Shown piece after piece: positions 15,517 to 32,639 of a stretch of DNA of 64,000 nt. Origin of the DNA: Halothiobacillus sp. (lineage in GTDB: Bacteria; Pseudomonadota; Gammaproteobacteria; Halothiobacillales; Halothiobacillaceae); the NCBI GenBank assembly GCA_024635755.1, contig JAGXIF010000008.1:48073-112072 (forward strand), given 5' to 3'. Positions within the stretch are counted from its first letter, which is position 1. Every line of letters starts with the position of its first letter. The notes below the pieces were generated by a model that saw nothing but the letters and a program-made list of their open reading frames with translations, had not been told where the DNA came from and did no database searches. The translations under genes were made by a program, and so were the position numbers.

Positions 15517-16293
15517 TCAGGTGGCGGCTTGCCTGTCATGCAGACGTCGCCCGATCAGCCGGGGTACTCGCCGCAGGAATCCCGCCAGCAGGCGCAGGTG
15601 CATCCAGATCAGGAGCCGGTTGTCGCGCCCGTAGCGAAAGTGCGAGACCCCGTCGGCCTCGGCATCGAAATAGCGCACCGGCGCGTCGACATTGATCGCC
15701 GGAACGCCCAGCCAGACGAGCCGGACGGCCGCTTCGGGGTCGAAGTCGAAGCGGCGCATCCAGCGCGTCTGCCGCATCACGGTGATCAACGGTTCGATCG
15801 GGTAGACGCGAAAGCCGAACAGCGAGTCACCAATGCCGCCCCAGAGCGTTTCCAGTTCCGCCCAGAAGTTCGAGATCTTGCGTCCCTGAACCCTCAGTGT
15901 CGGGGCTTCCTCCGAGAATACCGGTCGACCCAGGATCATGGCCTTGGGCTGGGCGCGTGCGGTGGTGATGAACCCCGGAATCAGCTCTGCAGGGTGCTGC
16001 CCGTCCGCGTCCATGGTGAGCGCGTGCGTGTAGCCTTGCGCCTGCGCCGCCTGAATGCCGGTCAGCACCGCGGCACCCTTGCCGAGATTCTCCTCGTGGC
16101 GCAAAACCGTCACCTCCGGTAGTTGGTCTGAGAGCCCGGTTAGGCGCCGATGGGTTTGATCGTCACTGCCGTCGTCGACGATCCAGATCGGCAAGCCGGC
16201 GGGGGACGCGTCCCGGACCGTCGTTTCGATGCGACGTCCCGGGTTGTAGCAGGGAATGAGAATCAGCGGATTGAAGGCGGCGGCAGTGCTCAT
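15517..16293 (-). CDS. Family 2 glycosyltransferase of the aryl polyene cluster
   Basis: 258 residues. It has a GT-A fold start LILIPCYNPG, a nucleotide-sugar site WIVDDGSDDQT, and the metal-binding DADGQHP motif. There is no extra membrane domain apart from a basic, hydrophobic C-terminus (LIWMHLRLLAGFLRR). It probably adds a sugar to the polyene or its lipid anchor, like the glycosyltransferases in xan and ape clusters. Its ATG overlaps the stop of the upstream acyltransferase by 4 bases (ATGA). It is the last gene of the leftward left block and converges on the PaiB-like gene. Confidence 0.88.
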   Translation of the reverse strand: MSTAAAFNPLILIPCYNPGRRIETTVRDASPAGLPIWIVDDGSDDQTHRRLTGLSDQLPEVTVLRHEENLGKGAAVLTGIQAAQAQGYTHALTMDADGQHPAELIPGFITTARAQPKAMILGRPVFSEEAPTLRVQGRKISNFWAELETLWGGIGDSLFGFRVYPIEPLITVMRQTRWMRRFDFDPEAAVRLVWLGVPAINVDAPVRYFDAEADGVSHFRYGRDNRLLIWMHLRLLAGFLRRVPRLIGRRLHDRQAAT

Positions 16294-17054
16294 GCGGCCT
16301 CCAGTGCCTGGCGGAAGGCCGTGTGCCATGCCTCGGCCCGGCCGCGTGGGTCGCCACCCAGCGCCGGGCGGTCGGTCAATGTCTCCACGCGCAGCCGGAC
16401 GGGTACGTTCGGCGGGCACCTGAGGGGCTCGTTTTTGCCGAGCAGGGGCGAGCTGTAGCGGAACAGGTAGGCATGGATCGGTGCCACGGCCCGTTCGGCC
16501 AGCATGAAGGCTGCCGGGTGAAAGGCATTGACGCCGCCTGTTTTGAGCCGCCGGGTGCGGGATCCCTCTGGAAACAGCAGCACGTGACATCCGGAGCGGA
16601 TCGCCGAGCGCCCGCCGAGCATCATCTCCACCGGATTGTCGTTGGGCAGGTAGCCCGCCAGACGCGCCGGCAGGGCCAGCAGCGGGTTGCGCAGCAGGCC
16701 CGCGCGCATCACGCAGACGACGTTCGGTGCATGGGCGAGCACCACCAGAGCATCGAGCAACGAGGGGTGGTTGGCGATGATCACCCCCGGCCTGGCATGT
16801 CGCAACTGGTCGAGGGCGCCGGTGTGGAATCGGCAGGCGCCGATCACGATCAGCCACCCCCGATAGACGCGCATCGCGTAATGGATGAGTTGCCGTGTCA
16901 TCCGTGGGCGCCTGCTGCCCGGAACCAGCAGCAGGAGCATCGCTAGGGGCAGCCACGCGATCAGCAACACCCCCAGGCCACCGAATCCCAGCAGCAGGAC
17001 GGGAAAGCCCAGCAGGCGTCGCCAGCCGCTCCGGTCGAGGTGGCTGGCGTTCAC
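16290..17054 (-). CDS. Lysophospholipid acyltransferase-like protein (PlsC family)
   Basis: 254 residues. One or two membrane helices lie near the N-terminus (LGFPVLLLGFGGLGVLLIAWLP). The acyltransferase box NHPSLLD (HX4D) and the substrate motif FPEGSR are intact. In aryl polyene clusters such enzymes attach the polyene chain to a glycerol or sugar lipid. The GTG start overlaps the stop of the chorismatase gene (GTGA); an open frame runs further upstream, but that part overlaps the chorismatase gene and is not needed. Confidence 0.87.
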   Translation of the reverse strand: MNASHLDRSGWRRLLGFPVLLLGFGGLGVLLIAWLPLAMLLLLVPGSRRPRMTRQLIHYAMRVYRGWLIVIGACRFHTGALDQLRHARPGVIIANHPSLLDALVVLAHAPNVVCVMRAGLLRNPLLALPARLAGYLPNDNPVEMMLGGRSAIRSGCHVLLFPEGSRTRRLKTGGVNAFHPAAFMLAERAVAPIHAYLFRYSSPLLGKNEPLRCPPNVPVRLRVETLTDRPALGGDPRGRAEAWHTAFRQALEAA

Positions 17055-18088
17055 AGCCGGACCCACGAGGCGCTCTCGGAGATATCGCTGCCATGCGGCT
17101 GGCTCAGCGGCCGACGCAGGGTCGCTTCGATCTCCACCAGCAGGTCCGAGCGACAGATGTCCGCCTGCAGGAAGACGACCTCGGCCGGCTCGCTCAACCA
17201 TGCCGCCAGGCATTGGCGCACCGCATCCAGATCACGAGGGTGGCGAATGTAGACGCGCAGCAGGGCCTCCGGTCCGAACGCGAAGGGCCGCAGCCCGTCG
17301 CCTCGGCGGGCATTGGCCTCGAGCCGCACTGCCTCCAGATTGGCCAGAGTCTCGTCGGTCTGGGCGCGGATGTCTCCAACGTGGCGGGTGACATGCCCGG
17401 TAATGGACGCGGTGCCCGAGATGAACAGCCAGTCATGAACCTGGCCGCGGGCGACCGCGGCTCGGGCGAAGATGGGGCTTCTGGGGCCGTATTCCGGTGG
17501 GTAGTGGTAGGCGCTGACCTGACGCGGGTTCTCGATCGGGAGGGACGGCGTGTCCGCGGCGAGGAAGACCAGGCGGCCCGGCCCGGTTTTCTCGCATCCC
17601 AGGGCGCATGCCGCCGGCGCGCTTGCGGCGATGTCGCGGCCGGCCGCCACGAATGCGGCAGCGCGTCCCTGGTTGAAGAGACGATAGCGCTCGATCCCCG
17701 TGTCGGGATCGGCGGCATTGATCGCCGGCAGGTATTGCCAAACGCGCCACAGGTGCGGCGTCTCCGATCGCTCGAGTAGCTCGAACAGCCGCCGGTAGGC
17801 CTGCTCGGTGCCCGCCGCCAGTCCGGCGCGCTCGTCCAGTTCGATCACGCCAAAGGAAAAGCCGCGGCCCGTCGTCAGGCAGAGGCCCGCATCCGCTTGC
17901 GTCTCGACGTCCTGGTCGATGCAAAAGGCCTCCACGGCGTGGGCGGGATCGCCGCCCAGCCATTCCAGGGGCAGTTCGCCGATGCAACCGCTCGCCTCCG
18001 ATAAAGGTCTGCCCGGCAGCGAGAGTGCGCCGAGCAACGTGGCTTGTGCCTCTAGACGGGGTTCCATGCGGGGATTCGGCGGGCTCAT
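17051..18088 (-). CDS. XanB2-like chorismatase (hydroxybenzoate supply)
   Basis: 345 residues with the two-domain, RidA-like layout of the chorismatase family (FkbO, Hyg5, XanB2). Recognisable blocks are LFNQGRAAAFVAAGR, VSAYHYPPEYGPRSPIFARA, and the C-terminal segment ADICRSDLLVEIEATL with the family's acidic residues. XanB2 of Xanthomonas cleaves chorismate to 3- and 4-hydroxybenzoate, which start xanthomonadin synthesis; this gene very likely does the same. It competes with the trp pathway for chorismate. Which isomer it makes cannot be read from sequence. It lies 7 bases downstream of the halogenase-like gene. Confidence 0.85.
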   Translation of the reverse strand: MSPPNPRMEPRLEAQATLLGALSLPGRPLSEASGCIGELPLEWLGGDPAHAVEAFCIDQDVETQADAGLCLTTGRGFSFGVIELDERAGLAAGTEQAYRRLFELLERSETPHLWRVWQYLPAINAADPDTGIERYRLFNQGRAAAFVAAGRDIAASAPAACALGCEKTGPGRLVFLAADTPSLPIENPRQVSAYHYPPEYGPRSPIFARAAVARGQVHDWLFISGTASITGHVTRHVGDIRAQTDETLANLEAVRLEANARRGDGLRPFAFGPEALLRVYIRHPRDLDAVRQCLAAWLSEPAEVVFLQADICRSDLLVEIEATLRRPLSQPHGSDISESASWVRL

Positions 18089-18095
18089 GGGCTGG

Positions 18096-19496
18096 TCAGG
18101 AGTCCTGGTCGAGCGGTTGAACCTTGCGTCGATGTGCCCACCAGTCGCGCAACGAGCGGCGCAGCTGCCCCAGCGAGGAAAGGTAGTAGATGCCTTTCAG
18201 AATGCGGATCGAGCGCCAGATCGGCGTGCCGCGGTGGATGTCCGCGGCCAGCAGCGAGATCAGTGCCTCCTTGACCCGGAAGATATTGCGCGGGCCCATG
18301 AAGAGATCGCGCATGACGGGCTTGGTGATCCGGTAGATGAACCAGGAGAACTCCTTCGGCCCGCGACGTATCTGGCGGTCGTAGGCCTTCAGGGCCTTCT
18401 TTGCCTGGTCGGGGTGGCGCAGGACGGTGTCGATGGCATCGGCCCCGAACACGCCGCTCTGCATGGCCAGCATCACGCCACTGGAAAAGACCGGATCGAT
18501 GAACATGAAGGCATCGCCCACCAGCAGAAACCGGTCGCCATGGGTGCGATCGGCCGAGTAGGAAAAATTGCCGGTTGCCTGCACGTCACGCACCAGCGTG
18601 GCGTCGGCCAGCCGTCGCCGGAGTTCCGGCACGCTGTCAACATTGTCCAGCAGGAACTGCTCGAGCGAGCGATCCTGGCGGGATTTCATGTGGTACGGCC
18701 AGGCCACCATGCCGACGCTGGTCACGCCGCTCTTCAGCGGGATGAACCAGAACCAGCCATGGTCGAACCAGAAGAGCGTGATGTTGCCTTCTTCCTTTCC
18801 CGGATTGCGCTGGGTATTGCGGAAATGGCCGAACACGGCGGCGCTGTTGTGTTTTCGGCTCCGGCGCTTCCAGCCATGGCGGTTCGCCAGGAAAGTGTCC
18901 CGTCCGGTGGCGTCGGCGACGAAGGCGGTGTGCCATTCGTGTCGTGCCTTGTTCTCATCCTCGGTAAGCACGGTCACGTGGTATTCGTTGCCGTACTCGT
19001 CTTGCCGGGCCGCGTCGTGGAAGTCGATGTCGACGACCTTGGTGCCCTCGATGGTGTGGGCCCCGTTGCGCGCGGCGTTGCGGAACAGGATGCGATCGAA
19101 TTCAGCCCGCTCGACCTCGTAGGCCTTGGGCATCGACTTGTCCCAGGCGTCGCCGAAGTTGTACGGCTGCACGTGATCGTGGACGGGAGAGACGAATTCG
19201 GCGCCCCACTTGTCGATGCCGATCTCGGCGATTTCCTCGGCCACGCCGAGGGTCTCGAACAGTTCCAGGTTGGCCGGCAGCAATGACTCGCCGATGTGAA
19301 ACCGGGGGTGGTGTTCCTTCTCCACCAAGACGACGTCGTGTCCCTGTCGAGCGAGCAGGGTGGCGATGGTCGAACCGCCCGGACCGCCACCTACGACGAA
19401 GACGTCGCAATAGCCGCCTTGTCGAATAGCGTGAGGATGGCTGGACGGGGACTCGGTTGGGACGGTGCTTGGGTCGGTCATGGGGCGTCCGGCCAT
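18096..19496 (-). CDS. Flavin-dependent halogenase-like oxidoreductase
   Basis: 466 residues. FAD motif GGGPGG (36-41), the family signature HIGESLLP (67-74), the halogenase WxWxIP motif at residues 248-253, and GDAFMFIDPVFSSGVML near residue 320 place it with tryptophan/phenol halogenase-like proteins. In Xanthomonas a similar gene is linked to the brominated pigment xanthomonadin. However, I see no lysine just before or after GESLLP, where halogenases usually carry the catalytic one, so it may be a hydroxylase or reductase instead. AAAGGAG (19502-19508) gives a strong ribosome binding site for the ATG at 19496. First gene of the left block. Confidence 0.8.
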   Translation of the reverse strand: MAGRPMTDPSTVPTESPSSHPHAIRQGGYCDVFVVGGGPGGSTIATLLARQGHDVVLVEKEHHPRFHIGESLLPANLELFETLGVAEEIAEIGIDKWGAEFVSPVHDHVQPYNFGDAWDKSMPKAYEVERAEFDRILFRNAARNGAHTIEGTKVVDIDFHDAARQDEYGNEYHVTVLTEDENKARHEWHTAFVADATGRDTFLANRHGWKRRSRKHNSAAVFGHFRNTQRNPGKEEGNITLFWFDHGWFWFIPLKSGVTSVGMVAWPYHMKSRQDRSLEQFLLDNVDSVPELRRRLADATLVRDVQATGNFSYSADRTHGDRFLLVGDAFMFIDPVFSSGVMLAMQSGVFGADAIDTVLRHPDQAKKALKAYDRQIRRGPKEFSWFIYRITKPVMRDLFMGPRNIFRVKEALISLLAADIHRGTPIWRSIRILKGIYYLSSLGQLRRSLRDWWAHRRKVQPLDQDS

Positions 19497-19708
19497 CGTG
19501 GCTCCTTTGATTCATTCGGTGTCATTCGGCGCGAAAAATTCGATCCACGGGACACGCTCGCGAAGGCGGTATGATCGGCGTCCGTACCCGGTGCGTCAAT
19601 ATGCTTAGCCGCACGATCCATGTCCCTGGGACAGGGCGTATTGAATGTGGTCGGGGGTCATGCGATAGTCGCGCGCACTTTGCGGACCATAGCGGTGGGA
19701 AATCAGGC

Positions 19709-20455
19709 GTGCCAGCGGTACCGACACAGCGAGACGAGACGGTAGCGACCTCCGGTTCCTGGAGCCGGGAAGTCGCTCGGCGGCTGGCATGCTGCTGGAT
19801 TCTCAAGGCGGTGGGCACGACTGCGGCGATGAGTCTGTTCTTTGTTGCCTATTTCCATCTGCTCGACCAGCCGACCGGCACGCCAACGGTGGTGCCCGAG
19901 TCCACTATCGATCACCTGGTGGGTTTTCAGCCGCAGTTCTTCTACCTGTATGCCTCGCTGTGGCTATACCTCTCGTTGGTCCCTGCCATCATGCCGGACC
20001 GCAAGGCCTTGGCACGCTACGGCGTCGCGATCGGTTTGCTCTGCCTGGTCGGTCTCGCCGTGTTCTACTTCTACCCGACCCAGATCGAGCGCGATCCCGC
20101 GCTCTGGACTAACCAGCCCCAGTTCGCCTGGCTGAGCGCGGTTGACAGCAGCGGAAACGCGTTTCCTTCCCTGCATGTGGCCACGGCCCTGTTCAGTGCC
20201 TACTGGCTGGATCGAACCATTCGCGCACTGGCCATGCCACCGGTGGCTCGTTGGCTATCCGCGCTCTGGGCGATCGGTATCGTCTACTCGACCCTCGCGA
20301 TCGCGCAACACGTCATGTGGGATGTCCTGGGCGGGGTTCTGCTGGCGATGACCGGATTGATACTGAGTGCTTCCTGGGTCTTCTTCGGGTCGAATGCCGC
20401 GGAGGCGAAAGCCGCCCCCGTCTCGATCTTCAAGTTCCGCTCCACCGGGAAGTGA
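19709..20455 (+). CDS. PAP2-family membrane phosphatase
   Basis: About 248 residues with five to six membrane helices. The PAP2/Aur1-type motifs FPSLHVATALF and QHVMWDVLGG (HxxxD) are present and intact. Such enzymes remove phosphate from lipids or transfer head groups. Its place at the head of the rightward block, with the next gene starting 4 bases after its stop, suggests it processes the lipid carrier of the polyene. The start is uncertain: GTG at 19709 with GTGGGA upstream is the best candidate, and ATG at 19601 also lies in frame. Confidence 0.75.
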   Translation: MPAVPTQRDETVATSGSWSREVARRLACCWILKAVGTTAAMSLFFVAYFHLLDQPTGTPTVVPESTIDHLVGFQPQFFYLYASLWLYLSLVPAIMPDRKALARYGVAIGLLCLVGLAVFYFYPTQIERDPALWTNQPQFAWLSAVDSSGNAFPSLHVATALFSAYWLDRTIRALAMPPVARWLSALWAIGIVYSTLAIAQHVMWDVLGGVLLAMTGLILSASWVFFGSNAAEAKAAPVSIFKFRSTGK

Positions 20456-20459
20456 TCTC

Positions 20460-21671
20460 GTGACTCCCTATCCCAGCCACCCGCGTCTGCGCATCTGTCA
20501 TTACACCGCGACCAATGCGGCCGGCACGGGAAACCGGGCGTTTCTCGATGCGCTCCGCGGGCGTCGCAGCGGCCTGGCACCCTGTAATTTTCTCGATGTC
20601 GATCTGGACACCTACGTGGGCCGTGTCGACGGATTGGAGGCCTTGCCGTGGCCCACGAGCTGGGCGGACTGGGATTGCCGCAACAACCGTCTTGCCTCGC
20701 TTGGTCTGGAGCAGGACGGGTTCGTCGAATCCGTCCAGAGCGCGGTCGGGCGTTTCGGCGCTCACCGGGTGGGCGTCGTGTTGGGTACCAGTACCTCCGG
20801 CATCCTGCATACCGAACTGGCTTTCCGCCAACGTGATCCCCAAACGGGGGCCTTGCCGGCGATGCATTACGCGACCACGCACGAGTTGTCCTCAGCGCCC
20901 CGGTTCGTCCGCGAACGCCTGGGCCTCAAGGGGCCGATGTACGCCGTTTCCACCGCCTGCTCATCCAGCGGCAAGGTGTTCGCCAGCGCGCAGCGGCTCA
21001 TCGGCCGCGGGCTCTGCGATGCGGTGGTCGTCGGTGGCGTGGACACGCTTTGCCTGACCACCCTGTACGGGTTTTCCTCATTGGAATTGACGGCGCCGGA
21101 ACCCTGCCGGCCGGGCGACCCCGATCGTGGCGGGATTTCGATCGGCGAGGCGGTGGGATTTGCGGTGGTGGAGGCCGATGAGGAAGACGCCGACGATCTT
21201 TGCGTCTTCGGCGTTGGCGAGAGTGTGGATGCCTATCACATGTCCACCCCTCACCCACAAGGCGCCGGCGCCGAGTTGGCGATGCGGCGGGCACTGGAGG
21301 TCTCTGGCATGTCTGCGGAGCAGATCGACTACGTCAACCTGCACGGCACGGCCAGTCGGGTGAACGATGCCGCCGAGGACCTGGCCCTCGAGGCGGTGTT
21401 CGGGCCGGGGCAGGCCTGTTCGTCGACCAAGGGCTGGACCGGTCATACCCTGGGGGCGGCCGGGATCACCGAGATGGTGATCGGCGCACTCGCGATCGAA
21501 TACGGCTTCATCCCCGGCACGCTCAACACCCGGCAGGTGGACCCGGTATTCCAGGCCGACTACCGGCTGGAGAATCGCGACGAGCGGCCTGCGCGGGTGC
21601 TGTCGAACTCCTTCGGTTTCGGCGGCAACAACTGCAGCCTCCTGTTCGGTCGCAAGGAGGGCAGCGAATGA
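20460..21671 (+). CDS. Beta-ketoacyl-ACP synthase of the aryl polyene cluster
   Basis: 403 residues from a GTG start 4 bases after the PAP2 stop. It is a FabF-like ketosynthase with the full Cys-His-His set: C167 (VSTACSSSG), H295 (LHGTAS) and H329 (GWTGHTLGAAG). It extends the polyene on ACP by condensing with malonyl units. It is followed by a chain-length factor, so the two may act as a pair as in type II polyketide and ape systems. The second ketosynthase at 31145-32410 could instead be the partner. Confidence 0.9.
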   Translation: MTPYPSHPRLRICHYTATNAAGTGNRAFLDALRGRRSGLAPCNFLDVDLDTYVGRVDGLEALPWPTSWADWDCRNNRLASLGLEQDGFVESVQSAVGRFGAHRVGVVLGTSTSGILHTELAFRQRDPQTGALPAMHYATTHELSSAPRFVRERLGLKGPMYAVSTACSSSGKVFASAQRLIGRGLCDAVVVGGVDTLCLTTLYGFSSLELTAPEPCRPGDPDRGGISIGEAVGFAVVEADEEDADDLCVFGVGESVDAYHMSTPHPQGAGAELAMRRALEVSGMSAEQIDYVNLHGTASRVNDAAEDLALEAVFGPGQACSSTKGWTGHTLGAAGITEMVIGALAIEYGFIPGTLNTRQVDPVFQADYRLENRDERPARVLSNSFGFGGNNCSLLFGRKEGSE

Positions 21672-23226: not shown

Positions 23227-23233
23227 TGGCGCG

Positions 23234-23983: not shown

Positions 23984-24008
23984 GCGTGTTGGCTACCGGA
24001 AGACGGAC

Positions 24009-24458: not shown

Positions 24459-26836
24459 GAATCGGCCTCCGTGGCTTGGCTATCCTCGGCATCAGGCTCG
24501 CGGGCGAAGATGGCCGCGAGCAGATAGGCTGACAGCGCCCCCGGCGCCACCACGGTGCCGATCGCTTGCAGCACCGGCACGGACGACAGGGCGAGCACCC
24601 CGAAGGCGCCCACCGTGGTGGTGGTGGCGAGGGTGAGTGATGCCAGCGTGCGCGCATCCATGACACGGCTGCGGTCGCGTGGCTGGAAGAACAGCGCGTA
24701 ATTGGACCCCACGGCCACCGTCAGCAGCAGCCCGATCAGATGCAACAGGGTCAGTCCGCCGCCAGCGAGGCTGTGACCGGCCAGCACCAGCACCACCGCC
24801 AGTCCGATGGGGAGCAAGGTCCGCAGGGTGCGGCGTGGGGACCGGTGCACGGCGAACAGCAACAGGACGATGGCACCGGCGCCCATCAGCGCGACGGTCA
24901 GGGTCGTCTCGAGGTAGTGGGCGTAGAGTCGGTTGGCTTCGCCCAGCATGTCGATGAGCGTGGCCGAGGCGACCGGAGCGATAGCCTGTCGGATGGCGTT
25001 GATGTCCAGCCCGTCCTCCTGAGCCTGTTCACGCAAGGTGATCATGGCCAACTGGCTGTCCTGCCCATCCGATGGCAACTGGCTGGCCACCGCGAGCCAC
25101 AGCGGGGTGCCCTTCAGCGAAGCCAGGTCCATCGTTTCCGCAGTGCGCTGGTCCGCCACGTCCTCGACAAAGCCCTCGAGTCGATCGGCCGACACGGGCA
25201 GGGCGGCGGTCGCTGTCTCGAGACGGCGCCTCAATTCCGCCGGCCGCGGCAGAGCGGCCTGTCGCGACTCTTGGGTTGCCTTCGATGGCAGGACGTCGGT
25301 CGGCGAGTGATAACCGGCGAGTGCGCCCTGGTCGACAAGCCGATCGAGGATGGGTGTCAGCCTCTCGGCTTGTTGCAGTGCCATCTCGGGATCCCGGGCG
25401 TTCACCACGATCAGGTAGCGCGGGCTGGCCGAGCCGAGGTCATCACGTAAGCGCGCGTCGGCGGCCTCCAGCGCCGGGTCGATGGGCACCAGCCCGGAGA
25501 GCGTGCCACGCCAAAGCTCGTTGCCGCCAAGCGCCACGATCACTACCGCGATGCCACCGGCGAGCAGCGCGGGCGTCCGCAGGCGACGCATGCTCCGCAG
25601 GGGAGCGGCGAGGCAATGGCCGAGGCCCGCAATGTCGGCGCGCGGCAGGCGTTCCCCGAGTATGGGCAGGATGTACCGGGTCACCAGCGCGGCGGTCGTC
25701 AGCCCGGTCATGGCATACACCCCGATCTGCATCAGGCCGGGAAAGCCCGAGAACAGGAGCGCCGCGAAGCCGATCAATGAGGTCATCAGGCCGAGGCGGA
25801 TCGTCGGCCAGTAGTGGCGCGCCCAGTTCCGGTGCCCGGCGTCCGTGTCACCCGTCTGGCGGGATTGAACGAAGAAATAGATGCTGTAGTCGATCGCCTC
25901 GCCCATTAGGGCCGTGCCGAAGCCAATGGTGATGCCGTGGACCTGGTCGAATCCGAGCGAGACCGCCGCGATACCCACCAGAACGCCACTCCCCACGGGC
26001 AGGAGGCCCGCCAGCAGCACGCGGATCGAGCGATAGGCGGCCAGCAGCACCAGGGTGACCAGCAGCAGGCTGGCGGCCGAGAACCAGGTCACCTCCGCCT
26101 TGATGGTGTCGCGCGCGGCGATGGCGAAGGCGGGCGAACCGGCCACCGTGAGAGTCAGGTCGTGCGGCATCGTCGCGCGAATGGACTGGAAGGTTGCGTG
26201 GATACGGGCACTGGCGCTCGACAATGCGTCGGTATCCGAGCCGCTGGCGGCGGCCTGTGCGATTAGCAGGGTCCGCTCCCCGTCTGCGGATGACCAGACG
26301 CCGCAACAGCGTGCCGGGCCATCGCCCTGCTTGTCGTCGAGCAGGGCAAGCATCGCGCCGGTGGGATCACGCGGGAACAGCTCCGCCATCATGTCGCCCA
26401 GCGGCGAGTTCAGTCGCTCGATCGAGTCGCCGATCGTAGCGCTGAGCCCCTCGGTGCTGAAATGTGCCCGATCGACGACGGGACTGAGCAGGTAACGGTG
26501 TGCAAACAGGTGGCGGCGGGCGCGTTCCAGATCCTCCCGGCCGCCGTTCTGCACGGTCGCGAAGGCGGGATCCTCGCGCAGCCAGGTCTTGAGCCGATCG
26601 CTCGCCACACCACGACTCTCGGGCGTTCCCCCCTCGATGGCGAGCAGGAAGGTCCGCGAGATGCCGCCTTGCTGGAGTTGCTCGACCAGCAGGCGCTGGG
26701 CGTCAGTCGGAGCGGCGGGCAGGAATGCCGACATGTCGGCCGTGAAGCGGGTCTGGTTTGTGACGCCGATCGCTGTAACAAGGACGGCTAGCCAGAGCGC
26801 TAGAAGGACCAGGGCGCGATTGAGTCGTGACTTCAT
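24455..26836 (-). CDS. MMPL/RND-family lipid exporter
   Basis: 793 residues, with twelve predicted membrane helices in two halves and two large periplasmic loops. Conserved family stretches include FGTALMGEAIDYSIYFFVQS and SNYALFFQPRDRSR. This is the HAE3-like exporter found in xan and ape clusters, thought to move the pigment lipid out of the inner membrane. It starts within the end of the LolA-like gene (4-base overlap), which supports a joint role in transport. Confidence 0.9.
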   Translation of the reverse strand: MKSRLNRALVLLALWLAVLVTAIGVTNQTRFTADMSAFLPAAPTDAQRLLVEQLQQGGISRTFLLAIEGGTPESRGVASDRLKTWLREDPAFATVQNGGREDLERARRHLFAHRYLLSPVVDRAHFSTEGLSATIGDSIERLNSPLGDMMAELFPRDPTGAMLALLDDKQGDGPARCCGVWSSADGERTLLIAQAAASGSDTDALSSASARIHATFQSIRATMPHDLTLTVAGSPAFAIAARDTIKAEVTWFSAASLLLVTLVLLAAYRSIRVLLAGLLPVGSGVLVGIAAVSLGFDQVHGITIGFGTALMGEAIDYSIYFFVQSRQTGDTDAGHRNWARHYWPTIRLGLMTSLIGFAALLFSGFPGLMQIGVYAMTGLTTAALVTRYILPILGERLPRADIAGLGHCLAAPLRSMRRLRTPALLAGGIAVVIVALGGNELWRGTLSGLVPIDPALEAADARLRDDLGSASPRYLIVVNARDPEMALQQAERLTPILDRLVDQGALAGYHSPTDVLPSKATQESRQAALPRPAELRRRLETATAALPVSADRLEGFVEDVADQRTAETMDLASLKGTPLWLAVASQLPSDGQDSQLAMITLREQAQEDGLDINAIRQAIAPVASATLIDMLGEANRLYAHYLETTLTVALMGAGAIVLLLFAVHRSPRRTLRTLLPIGLAVVLVLAGHSLAGGGLTLLHLIGLLLTVAVGSNYALFFQPRDRSRVMDARTLASLTLATTTTVGAFGVLALSSVPVLQAIGTVVAPGALSAYLLAAIFAREPDAEDSQATEADS

Positions 26837-27438
26837 CGGCTGTCGGCAGGATGCGTGATCTTCATGACGTTCACGCTACCGTTTGTGTGCTTGATCGTGA
26901 CGCGTTCCACGGTCGCCACCTCGCCCTCGAGTCGGCCACGCACCACGATCTGCTGCGCCAGTGCGTCGGTGCGCGGCAACAGCTTCAACCCCCATTGGGC
27001 GTCGGAGAGGTTCTGGAAGACGATGTCGTAATCCTCCTGCAGCGCGTCGATCTGGCCGTTGAGGATGCCGCGTAGGCTGGTCGCGATAGCGGAACCCGCG
27101 GGATGGTCGGCGAGGTCCAGTCGACGCTCCCGACCGTCCGCTCTCAGGATCAACATATTGCCGTCGAGGATCAGGGTTTGGCGATGGGGTTCGGTTTGTT
27201 TCTGGACGAGATAATCGGGTGGCCGATAGCGCAGGACGCCACGTGACTCGAGTGGCTTGTCGAGCATGTCGAGGTAACGGGTCTGCTGATACTCGGCGCT
27301 TGAGGCGCCCCGCTTAGCCAGGGCGTCAGCAAGATCGTCGAGCGACGGGGCTCCTGCCGCGAGGGCGGCAAAGGGCTGCACCGAGAGGAGGGTTAGCCAA
27401 CACCCAAAGAAGTAGCCGAACGAACGATGGTGTCGCAT
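26833..27438 (-). CDS. LolA-like outer membrane carrier protein
   Basis: 201 residues. A signal peptide (to about LAAGA, residue 30) precedes a LolA/LolB-type fold with YLDMLDKPLESRGVLRYRPP and a hydrophobic cavity pattern. It lacks the lipobox. In aryl polyene clusters such proteins are believed to carry the pigment lipid through the periplasm. It lies directly before the exporter gene. Its ATG overlaps the upstream acyltransferase stop by one base (TGATG). Confidence 0.85.
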   Translation of the reverse strand: MRHHRSFGYFFGCWLTLLSVQPFAALAAGAPSLDDLADALAKRGASSAEYQQTRYLDMLDKPLESRGVLRYRPPDYLVQKQTEPHRQTLILDGNMLILRADGRERRLDLADHPAGSAIATSLRGILNGQIDALQEDYDIVFQNLSDAQWGLKLLPRTDALAQQIVVRGRLEGEVATVERVTIKHTNGSVNVMKITHPADSR

Positions 27439-28376
27439 CAGTCTGACCCTTGTGTTGAAGCGGAATCGCGGGACTCGGCTGTCGCCCAGAAGTCAAAGAA
27501 GTTGAACCAGTTGTTGGGATGGTCGCGCACCAACGATTCAAGGCTTGCGACATAGCGATCCATGGCCGTCTTGATGGCTTGTCGACGCTCGCTTCGCGGT
27601 GTGGTGCGAAAGTCGGCGATCGGTTCGAAATGCACCCGGTATCGGTTGCCGCCGAGATAGATGCCGGCCATGAACAGGACTCGCTGGCGTAACAGGGCCG
27701 CCATGCGGAACGGCCCCTCGGCGAACTGCGCGGGCTCGCCCAGAAACGAGCGTTCGGTCATGGGGTCGGTGGCCAGGCTTCGGTCGGCGAGCATGCCGAC
27801 CAGGTTGCCCTGCTGCAGGCGGTGATCGGCCTCGATCATGGAGTCGATCTGTCCGAGCTCGATGATGTCACTCGCCTTGTCGGGATTGATCGCATCGAGC
27901 ACCCGCTGGATCTTCCGGGCATTTTCCGGGTACATCATCATGGTGATGGCCAGGTCGCGTTCGGACCAGGCGGCCGCACGCAGGGCATCGAAGCTGCCGA
28001 CGTGGGCGCCCACGAGAATGGCCGCTTCGGGCGGTTCGAAGCATTCGCGGCCCTCGACGGTGATCTCGAAGGCATCGAAACGACCATTGAGGAAATAGAC
28101 GCGGTCGTGGATGGTGCTGGCGAAATGATGAATATGGCCGAATATTTCCGTCGTCCGTGCTGGACGGCCATGGACCCGGCCGAGAAAAGAGCGGCTCGAG
28201 CGGCGCGCCTCGGGCACGAACAACAGGAAGTAGAGGCTGATGGGCAGCAGCAGTGGGCGCGTGATCCGCCTGCCCAGCCGCAGCGACAGGAATACCATCA
28301 GCCGCATGAGCCACTGATGGCCGCGCTCCCCACGTGTCTGCCAATGCGTGGTCTCGTGGTTCAACGGGTCATTCAT
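27438..28376 (-). CDS. LpxL-like lipid acyltransferase
   Basis: 312 residues. It shows one N-terminal membrane helix (RPLLLPISLYFLLFVP), the region VGAHVGSFDALRAAA resembling the lipid A acyltransferase HX4D box, and LADRSLATDP followed by GPFRMAALLRQRVLF. It is the second acyltransferase of the cluster, likely esterifying the lipid anchor with the polyene or a fatty acid. The ATG overlaps the dehydratase stop (ATGA); an in-frame open stretch upstream of it belongs to neighbouring genes. Confidence 0.85.
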   Translation of the reverse strand: MNDPLNHETTHWQTRGERGHQWLMRLMVFLSLRLGRRITRPLLLPISLYFLLFVPEARRSSRSFLGRVHGRPARTTEIFGHIHHFASTIHDRVYFLNGRFDAFEITVEGRECFEPPEAAILVGAHVGSFDALRAAAWSERDLAITMMMYPENARKIQRVLDAINPDKASDIIELGQIDSMIEADHRLQQGNLVGMLADRSLATDPMTERSFLGEPAQFAEGPFRMAALLRQRVLFMAGIYLGGNRYRVHFEPIADFRTTPRSERRQAIKTAMDRYVASLESLVRDHPNNWFNFFDFWATAESRDSASTQGSD

Positions 28377-28729
28377 GGCGCTCCCCACGGATAGGCCTCC
28401 GGCCCGGTTTCCACCAGCAGTTCGAGAACGAGTGTCCTCTCGCCGGTTTGCCGTTGGGCGGTGACATGCAGCTTGCCACGGCCGCGGGGGGCGACGACAT
28501 AGTCCAGGGACAAGGGTTCGTTCGGTCTGGCCGGGGAAAGGAACTTTGCCTGGCGGATCGAGCCGTGATCCGTTGCCCATCCCATGTGATGGCTGAGTGC
28601 GGTGATGGCCCAGTCGATCAGGATCGCACCGGGCAGCACCGGATTGCCTGGGAAATGGCCGGCGAACACGGGATCGTCCCCGTGGGGCGTCCATTCGGCC
28701 AATCGCTCGCGAACCGGCGGGGCAGTCAT
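28373..28729 (-). CDS. FabZ/ApeI-like hydroxyacyl-ACP dehydratase
   Basis: 118 residues, a single hotdog domain. The active-site motif GHFPGNPVLPG has the catalytic histidine at H25, as in FabZ and FabA. It makes the trans double bonds of the polyene after each ketoreduction. Its ATG overlaps the ligase stop by one base and its stop overlaps the acyltransferase start, so the whole stretch is one translational unit. Confidence 0.88.
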   Translation of the reverse strand: MTAPPVRERLAEWTPHGDDPVFAGHFPGNPVLPGAILIDWAITALSHHMGWATDHGSIRQAKFLSPARPNEPLSLDYVVAPRGRGKLHVTAQRQTGERTLVLELLVETGPEAYPWGAP

Positions 28730-30156
28730 CAGGATCCCCCCGCTTGCTTCGACATCGGATCGGCATCGATCAGACGAAGCAGGCTTTCACGGGTGACCTT
28801 GCCGGTCGCGTTTACCGGGAGGCGGTCGACCAGAAGCAGGGGGCGGGGCAGGAAGACCGGATCGACTTCCTTGCGCAGTGATTCGCGTATGCGTTCGGCC
28901 GACAGGCCGGGTGCGTAGACCACTGCGGCCAGTCGCGAGGTCACGTGTTCACCGCTGCTGCCGGGATCGAAGAACAGCCCTTCGATGACCCCATCGATCG
29001 CGCCCAGTTTGGCATTGAGAAACTGGATCGAACTGCGTTTCCCGGCGATGTTGACCTGATTGGTATGCCGGCCGAGCAAGTGAAACCGGCCCCCTTGCAG
29101 GGGTTCGATCCGGTCACCCAGCGGTGTGGGTACTTCGATGTGTCCGCCGTATGCGACGGTCTCGTCGTCCTGATGGCGGAGCTCGATTTCGGGCATCAAC
29201 GACCAAGCGCGATCCTGGGTGGGCCGCCGGGCCGCGATCTGCCCGGTTTCCGTGCAGCCGTATATCTCGTGGAGCGCGCCACCCAAAACCTGTTCGGCTC
29301 GTCGAGCCAACGCCGGATCGAGCGGTGCCGTCGCACAGAGCACGCGTTCGCAGCGAGGCAACTCGATGCCGGCGGCGAGAAGGTGGTGCAGGTGGTAGGG
29401 CGTGGTGACCAGCATGCGAGGGGCGGGCAGTCGCGAGAGCGCGTTGGCGATGTCGGTGGGAAAGAACGGCTGTTCCGTGGACAGGACGGCGCCCTCGCAC
29501 AGGGCGGCCAGGATCAAGGACTCGAAGCCGTACATGTGTTGCGACGGGACGGTGCCCAGCACATGAAATCGCTCGGCGGCAGGGGCGGCGGATTCATCCA
29601 TCGCCTGGTGCAGTGCTTGGGCAGCGGCTCGTGCGTTCCAGACTAGGCGCTGCCAGGTCTTGTCGTGGCCACAGGGCCTGCCGGTGCTGCCGGAGGTGAA
29701 AACCCGGGCGACCACCGCGTCGGCCGCGATGCGCGGGATGCTCTCGGGAATGGCGCGTGCCGCGTTTGCCTGCAACCCGGGAATCGCGACGTGCGGCAGT
29801 CGAGCGGCGAGGCGGCGATCAACCACGTCATCGGCGCCGTGCAGCAGCACCGCTCCCGGGTGCTGATCAAGCAGATCGTGGATCGCTCCCGGTGTCTGGC
29901 TGGCGGGCATCAGGTTGGTATGACCACCGATCATGCCGGCCAGCAGGCCGACGAGGAAATCATCGCGCCGACTCGCCAGGTTGATCAGGTAACGCGGCTC
30001 GTCACCCAGGTCCTGCAGCCGCTCGCCGAGCGCCTGGGCGCTGGAGAGCAGGTCGGCGGCGGTCCAGCAGCGGTCGGGCGAACGGAGAATGGTCCGCTCG
30101 AGGCGCTCGTTCATCAGGATCGGCAGTTGGCGAGATCCGCGATCCGATACGGTCAT
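28729..30156 (-). CDS. AMP-dependent aryl-ACP ligase
   Basis: 475 residues. Adenylating enzyme with the P-loop-like motif VFTSGSTGRPCGHDKTW, the core EIYGCTETGQIA, and the C-terminal lysine region LPVNATGKVTRESL. It is shorter than typical acyl-CoA ligases. In the ape and xan systems this enzyme activates hydroxybenzoate and loads it on the cluster ACP, so here it joins the chorismatase product to chain building. The start overlaps the membrane protein stop (ATGA). Confidence 0.88.
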   Translation of the reverse strand: MTVSDRGSRQLPILMNERLERTILRSPDRCWTAADLLSSAQALGERLQDLGDEPRYLINLASRRDDFLVGLLAGMIGGHTNLMPASQTPGAIHDLLDQHPGAVLLHGADDVVDRRLAARLPHVAIPGLQANAARAIPESIPRIAADAVVARVFTSGSTGRPCGHDKTWQRLVWNARAAAQALHQAMDESAAPAAERFHVLGTVPSQHMYGFESLILAALCEGAVLSTEQPFFPTDIANALSRLPAPRMLVTTPYHLHHLLAAGIELPRCERVLCATAPLDPALARRAEQVLGGALHEIYGCTETGQIAARRPTQDRAWSLMPEIELRHQDDETVAYGGHIEVPTPLGDRIEPLQGGRFHLLGRHTNQVNIAGKRSSIQFLNAKLGAIDGVIEGLFFDPGSSGEHVTSRLAAVVYAPGLSAERIRESLRKEVDPVFLPRPLLLVDRLPVNATGKVTRESLLRLIDADPMSKQAGGS

Positions 30157-30806
30157 TTTCTTGCGCTCGTCAGTTGCAGCATGTGGCGCCGGTAGGCCCG
30201 TATCGCACTAATCGGGCCGGTCCAGTCCTCTCGCGGCAGCACCCACAGGCGCACGAGATATTCCCCGGCAAACATGGCGACCACGAGCGGGAAGGTGGCA
30301 TAGACGGCATAGGTCGACCATAGGGCGGCGCCCAATGCGGCCATCAGTACGATCGAAAGGGTGCCGTTGGCGATGAAGAAAATTCCCCAGGCCCACGTGA
30401 TCTGACGGGTGTAGCGCACGAGGGTCGCCGACATGTGATCGTGCACCTGGTTTGCAAGGTCCGTGCATATGGGCTGGCGATCGCCCCGCAGGCTGCCGAG
30501 GAAGACTGCGGCGAGCGCGATGTGCACACCGACGTGTTGGCACAAATAGTAGAGGCCGATATGCGCGCCGAGGCTGTCGGCGATCCCCAGCATGACCGCC
30601 CCGAGCAGGAGGGCCAGCAGAAGGGTGGTGTACAGCCGAAGTCGCGGCTGCAAGGCCAGGAGGATCAACCCGGCGAGCGGGGCCAGCGCGAGCAGGGCCA
30701 GGTCGTCACCGAGCGATGACTGCCTGCCCAGCCAGTGCGCCAGACCCAGGTTGATCGCCAGGAGTGCGCCGATCAACCAGCGCCTGACGGTGACCCAAGC
30801 GGGCAT
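30153..30806 (-). CDS. Polyene-cluster integral membrane protein (ApeG-like)
   Basis: 217 residues with about six membrane helices, including LLAINLGLAHWLG and a conserved QITWAWGIFFIANG segment, ending in a basic tail. This family occurs in aryl polyene clusters next to the ligase, as here; its role is unknown. The ATG at 30806 starts 6 bases after the ACP stop. An earlier ATG at 30845 would overlap the ACP gene by 34 bases. Confidence 0.75.
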   Translation of the reverse strand: MPAWVTVRRWLIGALLAINLGLAHWLGRQSSLGDDLALLALAPLAGLILLALQPRLRLYTTLLLALLLGAVMLGIADSLGAHIGLYYLCQHVGVHIALAAVFLGSLRGDRQPICTDLANQVHDHMSATLVRYTRQITWAWGIFFIANGTLSIVLMAALGAALWSTYAVYATFPLVVAMFAGEYLVRLWVLPREDWTGPISAIRAYRRHMLQLTSARK

Positions 30807-30811
30807 GCTGA

Positions 30812-31093
30812 TTATTTGCTTCGGTTCTCGGCGATGAAGCGGCATAGATGGCGAAGCGAGGCGAAGATTTGCGTGTTGCGCTCGTCATCGGAGCGAAGAT
30901 TCAGGCCATAACGCTTGGAGACGACGAGCGCGATCTCCAGCACGTCGATCGAATCCAGTCCGAGTCCGTCACCAAACAGAGGGGCGTCGGGGTCAATCTC
31001 GTCGGGGGTCTCGTCGAGGTTGAGCGCATCGACCAGGTGTGTGGCCACTTCCGGGATCAGGGCTTCGGTCTGTGTCTCGATGTTGTTTTCCAT
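30812..31093 (-). CDS. Acyl carrier protein 2 of the polyene cluster
   Basis: 93 residues, acidic and helical. The phosphopantetheine serine is S48 in GLGLDSIDVLE. It carries growing chains together with the other cluster ACP. The holo-ACP synthase at 46609-46983 could activate it, since no other phosphopantetheinyl transferase is seen in the cluster. Confidence 0.92.
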   Translation of the reverse strand: MENNIETQTEALIPEVATHLVDALNLDETPDEIDPDAPLFGDGLGLDSIDVLEIALVVSKRYGLNLRSDDERNTQIFASLRHLCRFIAENRSK

Positions 31094-31144
31094 TGTGCGT
31101 GCGGTGCCGTGACTGTTGGAATGGGAATGCTCGTGAGTGGTTCG

Positions 31145-32410
31145 TCAGCAGCCATTCGGCCGGGCGAACGCCAGCACGGCGTTGCTGCCGCCGAATGCAA
31201 AGGAGTTGGATAGTGCGGCTACTATACCCGTAACGTCACGAGGTCGTTCGCGAATGTGATCCACGCCCTCGCAGGCGGGGTCCACTTCATCAAGGTATGC
31301 GGTCGGCGGCAATTGTTTCCGTTGCAGTGCCATCACGGTAATGGCGGCCTCGATCGCCCCGGTGGCGCCCATGGCGTGGCCATGCGCCGCCTTGGTTGCA
31401 CTGACCGGAAGCTTTGCGGCCAGTTGGTCGCCGAAGACCTCGCGCAGGGCACTGACTTCCACGGCGTCACCCTCAGTGGTGGCGGTGCCATGGGCGTTGA
31501 CGTAGCCGATCGACTCGAGCGGGAATTCGGCCTCGCTGAGGGCTTGCCGTATGGCGCGTACCTGGCCGTCCTTCTGTGGTCGGACCACGTGGTTGGCGTC
31601 ATTGGAGGCCCCAAAGCCGGTGATCTCGGCGAGAATCGGTGCGCCGCGCGCCTGTGCCCGGCTCAGGGACTCGAGCACGAGACAAGCGGCACCCTCGGCC
31701 AGCACCAGCCCGCGGCGATCCGGATGAAACGGCCGGCAGGCTCGGTGCGCACTGCTCTTGTCACCGGGAGCGAGCATGTGCATCGCATCCCAGGCGCGTA
31801 GCACGCCAAACGCAAGCGGCATGTCCGAGCCGCCGGCGAGCATCAGGTCCATGTGACCGTCCCGGATGCGCTCATAGGCATCGCCGATGGCGATGGCCGC
31901 CGAGGCGCAGGCAACGCTATGTGTCACGGCCTGTCCGCCCAGCCCGTACCTCATGCCGACCTGTGCGGAGGCGGCGTTGCTCATGCCCATCACCACCGAC
32001 ATGGGTGAGAGGCGCTTTCGCCCCTCTTTCCAGAGGCCTCGGTAGCCGTCCTCGAGGGTGTTGATGCCGCCGAGTGCAGTGCCCCAGTTCACCCCGGCGC
32101 GGGGGTCGATTTCCGTCGTCGAGGGCAGCCCGGCATGCGTCCACGCCTCGTCGGCGGCCAGAAGAGCGAGCCGGGCGAAGGGGTCGGTGCTGCGACATGT
32201 GGCTTTGCCAAGACGCTTTTCAAAGTCGATCGGGTCGAAGTAGACCGCCGGTGTCTGTCCACCGGTGGACTCGTCGCCATAGTCGAGCAACCGCACGCTG
32301 GACTGGCCGGCAAGGAGCCGGTCCATGACGGCATTGGAGTCGCCACCGAAGGGATCAAGGATGGAAAGCCCCGTGACGACGACCCGCTCTCTGTGGTGGT
32401 GTTCACGCAT
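31145..32410 (-). CDS. Second beta-ketoacyl-ACP synthase of the cluster
   Basis: 421 residues. Full ketosynthase with C168 (SVACASAA), H307 (NAHGTATTEGD) and H345 (HGHAMGATG). The acyl pocket region differs from the ketosynthase at 20460, so the two probably act on different chain lengths or pairings (ApeO and ApeR roles). The ATG at 32410 overlaps the upstream ACP gene by 8 bases; a TTG at 32419 is possible but less likely. Confidence 0.9.
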   Translation of the reverse strand: MREHHHRERVVVTGLSILDPFGGDSNAVMDRLLAGQSSVRLLDYGDESTGGQTPAVYFDPIDFEKRLGKATCRSTDPFARLALLAADEAWTHAGLPSTTEIDPRAGVNWGTALGGINTLEDGYRGLWKEGRKRLSPMSVVMGMSNAASAQVGMRYGLGGQAVTHSVACASAAIAIGDAYERIRDGHMDLMLAGGSDMPLAFGVLRAWDAMHMLAPGDKSSAHRACRPFHPDRRGLVLAEGAACLVLESLSRAQARGAPILAEITGFGASNDANHVVRPQKDGQVRAIRQALSEAEFPLESIGYVNAHGTATTEGDAVEVSALREVFGDQLAAKLPVSATKAAHGHAMGATGAIEAAITVMALQRKQLPPTAYLDEVDPACEGVDHIRERPRDVTGIVAALSNSFAFGGSNAVLAFARPNGC

Positions 32411-32639
32411 CGAGAGCAAGATGCTCCGATAGGATATCCATGAGTCCCTGGACCGTTTCGGGCGTCCCGATGTCGCTGCCCAGTTCGATGTTCATCTGCT
32501 CTTCCAGCGAAAAAATCAGTTCCAACAGGGCGAATGAGTCGATGCCGAGCTCGTCGAGGCGGCTGTCGGGTGTAACCGTTTCCGGGGCGATGTCGGTGTT
32601 CTCGGCAATGCCGGTACGGATGATCTCGAGTGCCTGCAT
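32403..32639 (-). CDS. Acyl carrier protein 1 of the polyene cluster
   Basis: 78 residues. The phosphopantetheine serine is S35 in LGIDSFALLE. AGGAAG seven bases before the ATG at 32639 fixes the start; an open frame reaching 32711 adds a basic stretch unlike ACPs. It is the first gene of the right block, so the block promoter should lie at 32640-32755, where I see no clear -35/-10 pair. Confidence 0.9.
   Translation of the reverse strand: MQALEIIRTGIAENTDIAPETVTPDSRLDELGIDSFALLELIFSLEEQMNIELGSDIGTPETVQGLMDILSEHLALDA

Follow-up and report, generated by a model that had tools for sequence, protein, structure and literature searches.

A conserved xanthomonadin-type aryl polyene gene cluster in Guyparkeria with a chorismatase that probably also serves ubiquinone synthesis

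Gene content and organization of the locus

The analysed window is a stretch of 64,000 nucleotides from a genome of Guyparkeria, a sulfur-oxidizing genus. At positions 15517-32639 it holds 19 genes, arranged in three opposed blocks, which between them account for the core reactions of an aryl polyene pathway of the xanthomonadin type, as an initial annotation of this DNA had described. The first block consists of four minus-strand genes (GT2, PlsC-like acyltransferase, chorismatase and FAD-dependent halogenase-like enzyme), and the second of five plus-strand genes (PAP2, KS, CLF-like protein, KR and polysaccharide deacetylase). The third contains ten minus-strand genes, running from a DH through MMPL, LolA, LpxL-like acyltransferase, ApeI-like DH, AMP ligase and a COG4648-type membrane protein to ACP, FabF-like KS and ACP at its end. 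The gene boundaries given below were set after removal of false N-terminal ORF extensions.

15517..16293, minus: family 2 glycosyltransferase (GT2), N-terminal half of E. coli ApeJ (PF00535, 2e-20)
16290..17213, minus: PlsC-type acyltransferase AT1, ApeD-like (PF01553, 1.1e-11; 28% to ApeD)
17051..18088, minus: chorismatase of the FkbO/Hyg5/XanB2 family, predicted 3-hydroxybenzoate maker (PF21168, 1.6e-30)
18096..19481, minus: FAD-dependent halogenase-like enzyme (PF04820, 4.1e-26)
19571..20455, plus: PAP2 phosphatase, start uncertain (PF01569, 1.8e-10)
20460..21671, plus: ketosynthase, ApeO type, TACSS active site (NF006618; 41% to ApeO)
21668..22489, plus: chain-length-factor-like KS partner (PF13723, 1.5e-28 on the longer ORF)
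22486..23226, plus: 3-ketoacyl-ACP reductase (NF004200; 46% to ApeQ)
23234..23983, plus: polysaccharide deacetylase, NodB fold (PF01522, 4.6e-10)
24009..24458, minus: DH1, probable second dehydratase in the ApeP role (position and homologs in related clusters)
24455..26836, minus: MMPL/RND exporter, ApeM type (PF03176, 4e-17; 24% to ApeM)
26833..27438, minus: LolA-like carrier, ApeL type (PF19574, 7.1e-12)
27438..28376, minus: LpxL-type acyltransferase AT2, C-terminal half of ApeJ (PF03279, 2.2e-10)
28373..28729, minus: dehydratase, ApeI-like (PF07977, 6.4e-07)
28729..30156, minus: AMP-forming acyl-ACP ligase in the ApeH/ArcT role (PF00501, 2.8e-23; 25% to ApeH)
30153..30845, minus: COG4648-type membrane protein, ApeG-like (33% to ApeG over 103 aa)
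30812..31093, minus: acyl carrier protein a (NF006617; 50% to ApeE)
31145..32410, minus: FabF-like ketosynthase of a cluster-specific clade (PF00109, 4.6e-42)
32403..32639, minus: acyl carrier protein b (PF00550, 3.7e-09)
32800..32890, minus: tRNA-Ser(TGA), cluster border (ARAGORN, Rfam)

Pfam matches at E<=0.001 were obtained for 17 of the 19 genes; DH1 (24009-24458) and the COG4648-type protein (30153-30845) had none at this threshold and are assigned from their position and from matches in other clusters. All 19 genes are retained, with order and strand kept, in six of the seven other chorismatase-bearing Guyparkeria genomes that were read, the cluster being cut by a contig end in the seventh, and also in one genome of the sister genus (G017). 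Because of these domain matches and the kept order and strand, the locus appears to be more than a chance grouping, and the 19-gene aryl polyene cluster proposed in the initial annotation is confirmed as a real and well-conserved unit, one that belongs to the already known xanthomonadin-type clusters. It is not essential to the genus, since a search of one more Guyparkeria genome, the eighth (G005, 99% complete), turned up neither a chorismatase nor a cluster-type KS.

The bordering tRNA-Ser was considered as an insertion site for the cluster, but this finds no support: matches to the tRNA end on the far side of the cluster are short and no better than chance. Counts of promoter-like sites (1 seen, 1.8 expected) and terminator-like sites (4 seen, 9.1 expected) did not exceed expectation.

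Starter supply, elongation and reduction

The predicted pathway begins with conversion of chorismate to 3-hydroxybenzoate by the chorismatase, which scores 217 bits against TIGR04444, under the 325-bit cut-off. In alignments the protein carries the Hyg5-type residues G225, C312 and E319; the glycine and cysteine occupy positions where the Hyg5 chain and FkbO differ, and the catalytic glutamate is present (roles of these residues as given in the available text of PMC7170507). Among the 120 best proteins, one of which is the window's, a motif search recovered this glycine-cysteine pair in 118. The exact product of the chorismatase is not readable from sequence, according to the accessible part of PMC3949708, and 3-hydroxybenzoate is the predicted one. 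In related systems, ArcB of Azoarcus is described as making 3-hydroxybenzoate (PMC3949708, in part), and deletion of Lysobacter ORF5 is described as removing about 90% of the pigment, which 3-hydroxybenzoate restored (PMC3691225, in part).

The AMP ligase would load 3-hydroxybenzoate onto an ACP, where the KS/CLF-like pair, KR and two dehydratases would lengthen it in successive malonyl additions that skip enoyl reduction, giving a conjugated polyene acid on the carrier. The ketosynthase (506.6 bits against NF006618, cut-off 407) and KR (330.5 bits against NF004200, cut-off 273) exceed their model cut-offs, both scored on the longer ORFs, as does ACP a (124.5 bits against NF006617, cut-off 70). 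The genes for the KS and its CLF-like partner overlap by four bases (20460-21671 and 21668-22489). The latter is 33% to ApeC over 114 aa, and its SVHN is kept in all 25 aligned proteins; no glutamine of the window protein is common to at least 80% of these 25, an alignment without the Lysobacter protein in which the conserved glutamine is Q166.

The ApeI-like dehydratase reaches 2.2e-05 with the ApeI-like model PF22818, which is under cut-off, and is 33% to ApeI over 55 aa. DH1 has no ApeP match, in addition to lacking a Pfam match at 0.001; it has homologs in many related clusters and is likened, by position and not by alignment, to an Azospirillum gene between KR and CLF that is annotated as a dehydratase. 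In a tree with two retrieved sets of other KS genes from Guyparkeria, the FabF-like KS branches apart from each set. It was considered as an ortholog of ApeR, and this was rejected; the tree does not join the two, ApeR being on a long branch, so a possible role as initiation KS remains a guess.

Thus, the features that mark membership of the xanthomonadin type (KS with CLF-like partner, AMP ligase, ACP, KR and two dehydratases, DH1 by position and homologs) are present, together with a chorismatase bearing residues of the 3-hydroxybenzoate type and a halogenase-like gene. It was these last two genes that the initial annotation had taken as the link to Xanthomonas, an assignment that the present evidence supports.

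Lipid attachment and export

GT2 and AT2 match successive parts of ApeJ, at 42% over residues 5-242 and 28% over residues 243-557, respectively. The upstream part of the 525-aa GT2 ORF is taken as spurious because it overlaps another gene, and the true start of AT1 is probably near 17054-17066. The deacetylase carries SFDDG and HGGEH motifs, the LolA-like carrier scores 45 bits with the flexirubin LolA2 model, under its 125-bit cut-off, and the COG4648-type label rests on the match to E. coli ApeG. In the predicted pathway, a glycolipid anchor would be made and modified by GT2, PAP2, the deacetylase and both acyltransferases; the MMPL and LolA proteins would export the polyene, which is likely lipid-anchored and moved to the outer membrane. 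Neither a thioesterase nor a methyltransferase was found among the 19 genes.

The halogenase-like enzyme

The least secure step of the predicted pathway is that of the halogenase-like enzyme, which may put chlorine or bromine on the aryl ring. The protein matches the PDB halogenase 3e1t at 1.2e-54, and seven of its best ten PDB matches are named halogenase, with one flavoprotein/dehydrogenase; ChlB4 and CmlS, both among the PDB matches, are presumably halogenases. A lysine and WxWxIP, which we take to be halogenase marks, are invariant in all 120 of the nearest halogenase-like proteins, the window's own included. NCBIfam models return halogenase CmlS at 197.3 bits and monooxygenase QhpG at 160.7 bits, both under cut-off.

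The nearness of these two scores leaves room for a reading that deserves serious weight, though short of being favoured, in which the same cluster operates without halogenation, the enzyme likely being a hydroxylase or some other oxidoreductase of the flavin type, so that a simple hydroxyphenyl polyene lacking methylation would result. A 61% relative of the protein (P0222) comes from Azoarcus olearius, the species to which strain BH72 belongs. In that strain one of the arc genes is annotated as a halogenase, yet the polyene fragment reported for its pigment arcuflavin has m/z 317.2 (PMC3949708, Table 1 and accessible text). By our own calculation this value agrees with a methoxyphenyl heptaene acylium free of halogen, at 317.154. 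Against this stand the invariant lysine and WxWxIP and the halogenase names among the PDB matches, as well as reports in the available portions of PMC3691225 that brominated pigments come from Xanthomonas clusters with a halogenase gene, whereas Lysobacter, which has none, gave no bromine pattern.

A possible second role in ubiquinone synthesis

The dominant quinone of Guyparkeria is ubiquinone-8 (PMC9032823, in part). UbiC was not found in any of the 11 Guyparkeria or 10 sister-genus genomes, and UbiA is present in 26 of 27 family genomes, that of the window (87.9% complete) included. Because UbiA is present there and UbiC was not found, the chorismatase probably provides 4-hydroxybenzoate for ubiquinone-8 as well, a part that XanB2 plays in Xanthomonas; a single enzyme would thereby feed both pigment, through 3-hydroxybenzoate, and ubiquinone-8, through 4-hydroxybenzoate. 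Across a class-wide sample of 369 genomes, kinship not accounted for, UbiC was found in 17 of 66 genomes with a strong chorismatase match versus 207 of 303 others.

It could instead be, though this is rather unlikely, that the chorismatase serves the pigment only and that ubiquinone draws its 4-hydroxybenzoate from an unrecognised enzyme. Both chorismatase and UbiC were not found in six of the 27 family genomes, four of which (G005, G014, G024 and G025) are at least 98% complete, yet UbiA is found in all six; there must therefore be a third route to 4-hydroxybenzoate, or undetected enzymes, in those six, and the same could hold in Guyparkeria. PF01947, presumably another chorismate lyase family, was likewise not found in Guyparkeria. 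This pigment-only role is countered by the 12 sampled class loci that have a chorismatase and no nearby pigment genes, none of which is in a UbiC genome, as would fit a ubiquinone role of the enzyme family; in one of these loci, L028, a contig of 4.8 kb, the halogenase-like gene does lie beside the chorismatase.

Predicted product and its significance

Overall, it can be held with considerable confidence that the locus would encode a xanthomonadin-type aryl polyene pathway starting from 3-hydroxybenzoate, with a likely lipid-anchored product exported to the outer membrane and a chorismatase that likely supplies both ends. The predicted product is a yellow pigment of the membrane, comparable to the one in Xanthomonas, where the yellow 3-hydroxyphenyl polyene typical of this kind of cluster is brominated; the initial annotation proposed a putative antioxidant role for it. 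Since a dialkylresorcinol pathway would call for a further KAS III-like enzyme, it is very improbable that the polyene is esterified to a dialkylresorcinol in the manner of flexirubin or arcuflavin: no second KAS III-like gene is among the 19, and a single KAS III gene was found in each of G000 (the window genome), G006 and G009 (the latter two single-contig). The gene set does resemble that of Azoarcus, where such esterification is proposed (PMC3949708, in part).

It should not be taken for granted that cultures look yellow in the laboratory, since strain 1SP6A2, which holds orthologs of two cluster genes (P0015 and P0241), was among 18 Guyparkeria isolates from a brine plating whose colonies are described as white and slightly translucent (PMC9144203, in part). 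In strain TX1 the halogenase-like gene has an ortholog at 81%, and the accessible account of the strain's Raman spectrum reports cytochrome c and phenylalanine bands and names no polyene band. In two Guyparkeria genome papers the main text is silent on pigment.

With this cluster, a complete pathway of the xanthomonadin type is found in sulfur oxidizers that live chemolithoautotrophically and must spend fixed carbon on pigment, and the likely double use of one chorismatase would couple respiration to a secondary pigment in bacteria that can be cultured. The locus also supplies candidates for the genes behind natronochrome, a pigment in the membranes of sulfur oxidizers from soda lakes; these genes were described in 2011 as unidentified (PMC3368412, in part), and the accessible text of two natronochrome papers names none. 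This link is an attractive candidate idea. The K90mix plasmid was absent among plasmid records with KS matches at 1e-50 or halogenase-like matches at 1e-60, a search outside which the chromosome lay. It seems improbable that the fuller proposition holds, in which halophilic sulfur oxidizers draw on one in-cluster enzyme for ubiquinone-8 as well as for a halogenated aryl polyene, and such loci are the missing natronochrome and chloronatronochrome genes of Thioalkalivibrio.

Comparison with known systems

Comparison with ape loci, as the initial annotation had suggested, bears out the relationship: 13 of the 19 window proteins match 12 of the 18 Ape proteins of E. coli CFT073 (15 rows, E<=1e-3). 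The E. coli locus runs in a single direction (PMC8253772, in part), whereas the Guyparkeria cluster has opposed blocks. ApeJ is one fused protein in E. coli and two genes in Guyparkeria; the chorismatase, halogenase, PAP2 and deacetylase of the Guyparkeria cluster are all absent from ape, while the thioesterase and methyltransferase of ape have no counterpart among the 19. Membership of the E. coli ape type was rejected in view of the opposed blocks, the failure to find UbiC, which supplies 4-hydroxybenzoate in the ape type, and the lack of a match to ApeK (thioesterase).

The Xanthomonas xan/pig cluster and ORF1-17 of Lysobacter enzymogenes, compared by description and not by sequence, share with Guyparkeria a 3-hydroxybenzoate-related chorismatase, KS/CLF-like pair, KR, two dehydratases, ACP and transport genes; Lysobacter differs in lacking a halogenase and in that a single ACP and a single KS are listed for it (PMC3691225, in part). 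The gene set is close to that of the Azoarcus sp. BH72 arc cluster, which has a halogenase next to the chorismatase, an acyltransferase, GT, KS, CLF-like protein, KR and DH, and also a deacetylase, exporter, LolA, second acyltransferase and DH, ligase and ACP (PMC3949708, Table 1 and available text). Azoarcus has two unlinked loci, a methyltransferase and a separate dialkylresorcinol cluster, as far as that text describes, in contrast to the single Guyparkeria locus, which has in addition PAP2, a second ACP and the FabF-like KS.

A plasmid locus of Azospirillum ramasamyi (NZ_CP029832.1, 57092-71310) shares the halogenase-like gene (54%), acyltransferase and GT, opposed to a block annotated as KR, dehydratase, CLF, KS, deacetylase, MMPL, LolA-related, AMP-binding and phosphopantetheine-binding proteins; it differs in having two blocks, methyltransferases and no annotated chorismatase, and in being plasmid-borne. 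A betaproteobacterial MAG (L014) likewise has its blocks opposed. Thus, the contrast with ape that the initial annotation had drawn stands, but the opposed blocks are no novelty among xanthomonadin-type loci: the layout is a conserved family form, unusual only beside the one-direction ape loci.

Gene content and borders of the cluster

The initial annotation placed 19 genes in three opposed blocks at 15517-32639, an arrangement that is borne out by trimmed open reading frames (ORFs) and family matches. Several long ORFs were trimmed for false N-termini overlapping neighboring genes, which exposes two genes lying under longer ORFs. The set is situated between an FMN-binding protein gene and a tRNA-Ser gene, in a Guyparkeria genome (G000) of 2,226,020 bases in 51 contigs (87.9% complete), and the closest named relatives of its chorismatase are mostly from Guyparkeria.

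14715-15392, FMN-binding protein gene, cluster border
16290-17213, PlsC-like acyltransferase, revealed after ORF trimming
28373-28729, ApeI-like dehydratase, revealed after ORF trimming
31145-32639, FabF-like ketosynthase (KS) and second ACP, extra parts of the cluster
32800-32890, tRNA-Ser, the other cluster border

In a tree of KS genes from four Guyparkeria genomes, the FabF-like KS forms a distinct clade, separate from both other KS groups; its relatives at about 55% include proteins of Hydrogenophaga and Azospira. The PAP2 and deacetylase proteins, matches to which also adjoin two other clusters (L032 and L033), would act on the lipid anchor. At 35604-36970, just past the NadB-like gene that adjoins the cluster, lie genes for an ECF sigma factor and for an RseA-like protein (the latter under the Pfam cut-off), a proximity that makes a link to envelope stress possible.

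Conservation of the three-block layout

The 19-20 kb around the chorismatase gene, or the sequence up to the contig end, was taken from the seven other Guyparkeria genomes that bear it. Six of these loci (L015, L016, L017, L018, L020 and L021) contain all 19 genes with order and strand unchanged. The contig of the seventh (L019, from G007, 79% complete) begins within the chorismatase gene, and the rest of G007 gave no cluster-type KS. In three further Guyparkeria genomes, G004 (64% complete), G005 (99%) and G008 (85%), both chorismatase and cluster-type KS were unmatched. At E below 1e-100, the cluster-type KS is present in 7 of 11 Guyparkeria genomes and 8 of 10 genomes of the sister genus, g4. 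In G005, the same FMN-binding gene/tRNA-Ser site carries about 13.7 kb instead of the cluster (L056, 2133-15812). Among the contents of this segment are a tyrosine integrase gene, restriction genes of the Mrr and MmeI types and a match to a terminase small subunit; a 15-bp repeat of the 3′ end of tRNA-Ser bounds it.

Within g4, all 19 genes recur in the same layout in G017 (across L024 and L065), and 18 recur in G013 (L057), where the chorismatase gene (L022) lies elsewhere on the same contig, at 523 kb versus 2.73-2.75 Mb for the cluster. The layout is also the same from the glycosyltransferase (GT2) to the ligase in G023, at a locus (L059) without the chorismatase. The first two blocks are present in G015 (L023 with L064) and G019 (L025 with L068), with no third-block genes within the following 10-14 kb, and in G026 (L062) as far as the contig end. 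L061 of G025 shows a short part of the cluster, gene order differs in G021 (L060), and the cluster-type KS was not found in G022 or G024. The layout is thus kept across genomes, with exceptions, and is therefore a conserved family form rather than a peculiarity of G000. Two other genera of the family have aryl polyene genes in one direction and no chorismatase (G014, L063; G011, L067), the set in G011 including a halogenase-like match, so that two cluster architectures coexist within one family.

Chorismatase as the predicted source of the starter

The chorismatase aligns with FkbO (4bps, 8.5e-45) and with 5ag3 (1.4e-40), which was deposited under the title putative pteridine-dependent dioxygenase and which we take to be Hyg5. 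At two positions that differ between FkbO and Hyg5 it agrees with Hyg5 (G225 and C312), and it retains the catalytic glutamate (E319). For a related enzyme, the excerpted source describes the matching glycine and cysteine as marks of the 3-hydroxybenzoate (3-HBA)-forming subfamily, for which it also names a third residue, Gly-164, and the glutamate as catalytic; the Gly-to-Cys distance is 87 residues in both enzymes (PMC7170507). Among the top 120 proteins, a set that includes the one from the window, a motif search detects both the glycine and the cysteine in 118 and a single one of them in each of the remaining two. Formation of 4-hydroxybenzoate by such chorismatases is not readable from sequence, according to an extract of PMC3949708.

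Chorismatase, UbiC and ubiquinone

The ubiquinone-path enzyme UbiC (PF04345) was found in none of the 11 Guyparkeria or 10 g4 genomes and in five of six genomes from other genera of the family (g2 and g3); the corresponding counts for chorismatase are 8, 8 and 0. The two never share a genome among the 27 of the family. Neither was found in six (G004, G005, G008, G014, G024 and G025; four of them at least 98% complete), and UbiA is present in 26 of 27, all except G026, and so in all six.

A class-wide sample of 369 genomes gave 73 matches to the chorismatase model, of which seven weak ones (E above 1e-30; four with UbiC) were left uncounted as chorismatase. UbiC is present in 17 of 66 genomes with chorismatase versus 207 of 303 others, the seven included (Fisher p 2.4e-10, kinship ignored). 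Neighborhoods were examined for 31 of the 66, hand-chosen as mainly better matches on longer contigs, three of them Guyparkeria. Seventeen chorismatases are clustered (four or more other matches), with UbiC in seven of these genomes, and two have partial neighborhoods, with UbiC in one. The other 12 have no nearby pigment genes (at most one match) and UbiC in none of their genomes, which could carry pigment genes elsewhere, as G013 does; one of these neighborhoods (L028) spans only 4.8 kb and contains a halogenase-like gene. These counts are most simply read as replacement of UbiC by stand-alone chorismatases; clustered ones may or may not replace it, and the clustered one of Guyparkeria likely serves both pigment and ubiquinone, the double role that is reported for XanB2 (cited in an extract of PMC3949708). 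The Guyparkeria quinone is ubiquinone-8, with ubi genes in all genomes according to part of the pangenome paper (PMC9032823).

Halogenase-like enzyme and phenotype

The halogenase-like enzyme has the lysine and WxWxIP residues, presumably halogenase marks, and so do all of its nearest relatives (120 of 120 proteins, itself included, the best among 7,912 matches). A 61% relative (P0222) belongs to Azoarcus olearius, which we take to be the species of strain BH72. The BH72 cluster includes a gene annotated as a halogenase, and the pigment gives a polyene fragment of m/z 317.2 (PMC3949708, in extract). This value fits an unhalogenated methoxyphenyl heptaene acylium (calculated 317.154), and the window enzyme therefore may or may not halogenate.

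The main text of the Guyparkeria genome papers searched contains no pigment description. In a brine plating with 18 Guyparkeria among 41 isolates, colonies were white and slightly translucent (PMC9144203, in extract). Strain 1SP6A2 from that plating has orthologs of the chorismatase (68%, P0015) and of the FabF-like KS (91%, P0241), the two genes through which it is known here. For strain TX1, the section on Raman spectra at 532 nm names cytochrome c and phenylalanine bands and no polyene band. White colonies and these bands suggest that such cultures may express the cluster little, or that its color may be faint.

Comparison with known clusters

The comparison with ape loci proposed at the outset, made against E. 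coli CFT073, gives 15 rows at E ≤ 1e-3, which pair 13 of the 19 window proteins with 12 of the 18 Ape proteins. At this threshold, the chorismatase, halogenase-like, PAP2, deacetylase, DH1 and ACPb proteins have no match among the 18, and ApeA, ApeB, ApeF, ApeK, ApeN and ApeP are unmatched by any of the 19. ApeJ is a single protein in E. coli, whereas its two halves match GT2 and the LpxL-like acyltransferase, here separate genes. An Azospirillum ramasamyi plasmid also carries a xan-like aryl polyene cluster (L071), in which no chorismatase is annotated.

Literature searches that paired aryl polyene or xanthomonadin with the host names brought up, among the matches listed, no publication about this cluster. 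The genes for natronochrome, a pigment of soda-lake sulfur oxidizers, are stated in part of PMC3368412 as still to be identified; a link to this pigment is an idea drawn from host ecology and its gene-orphan status. Every part of the cluster belongs to a known family, and its gene content is close to that of Azoarcus and Xanthomonas; novelty appears to lie in the group of hosts, the conserved form with three blocks and the inferred connection to ubiquinone.
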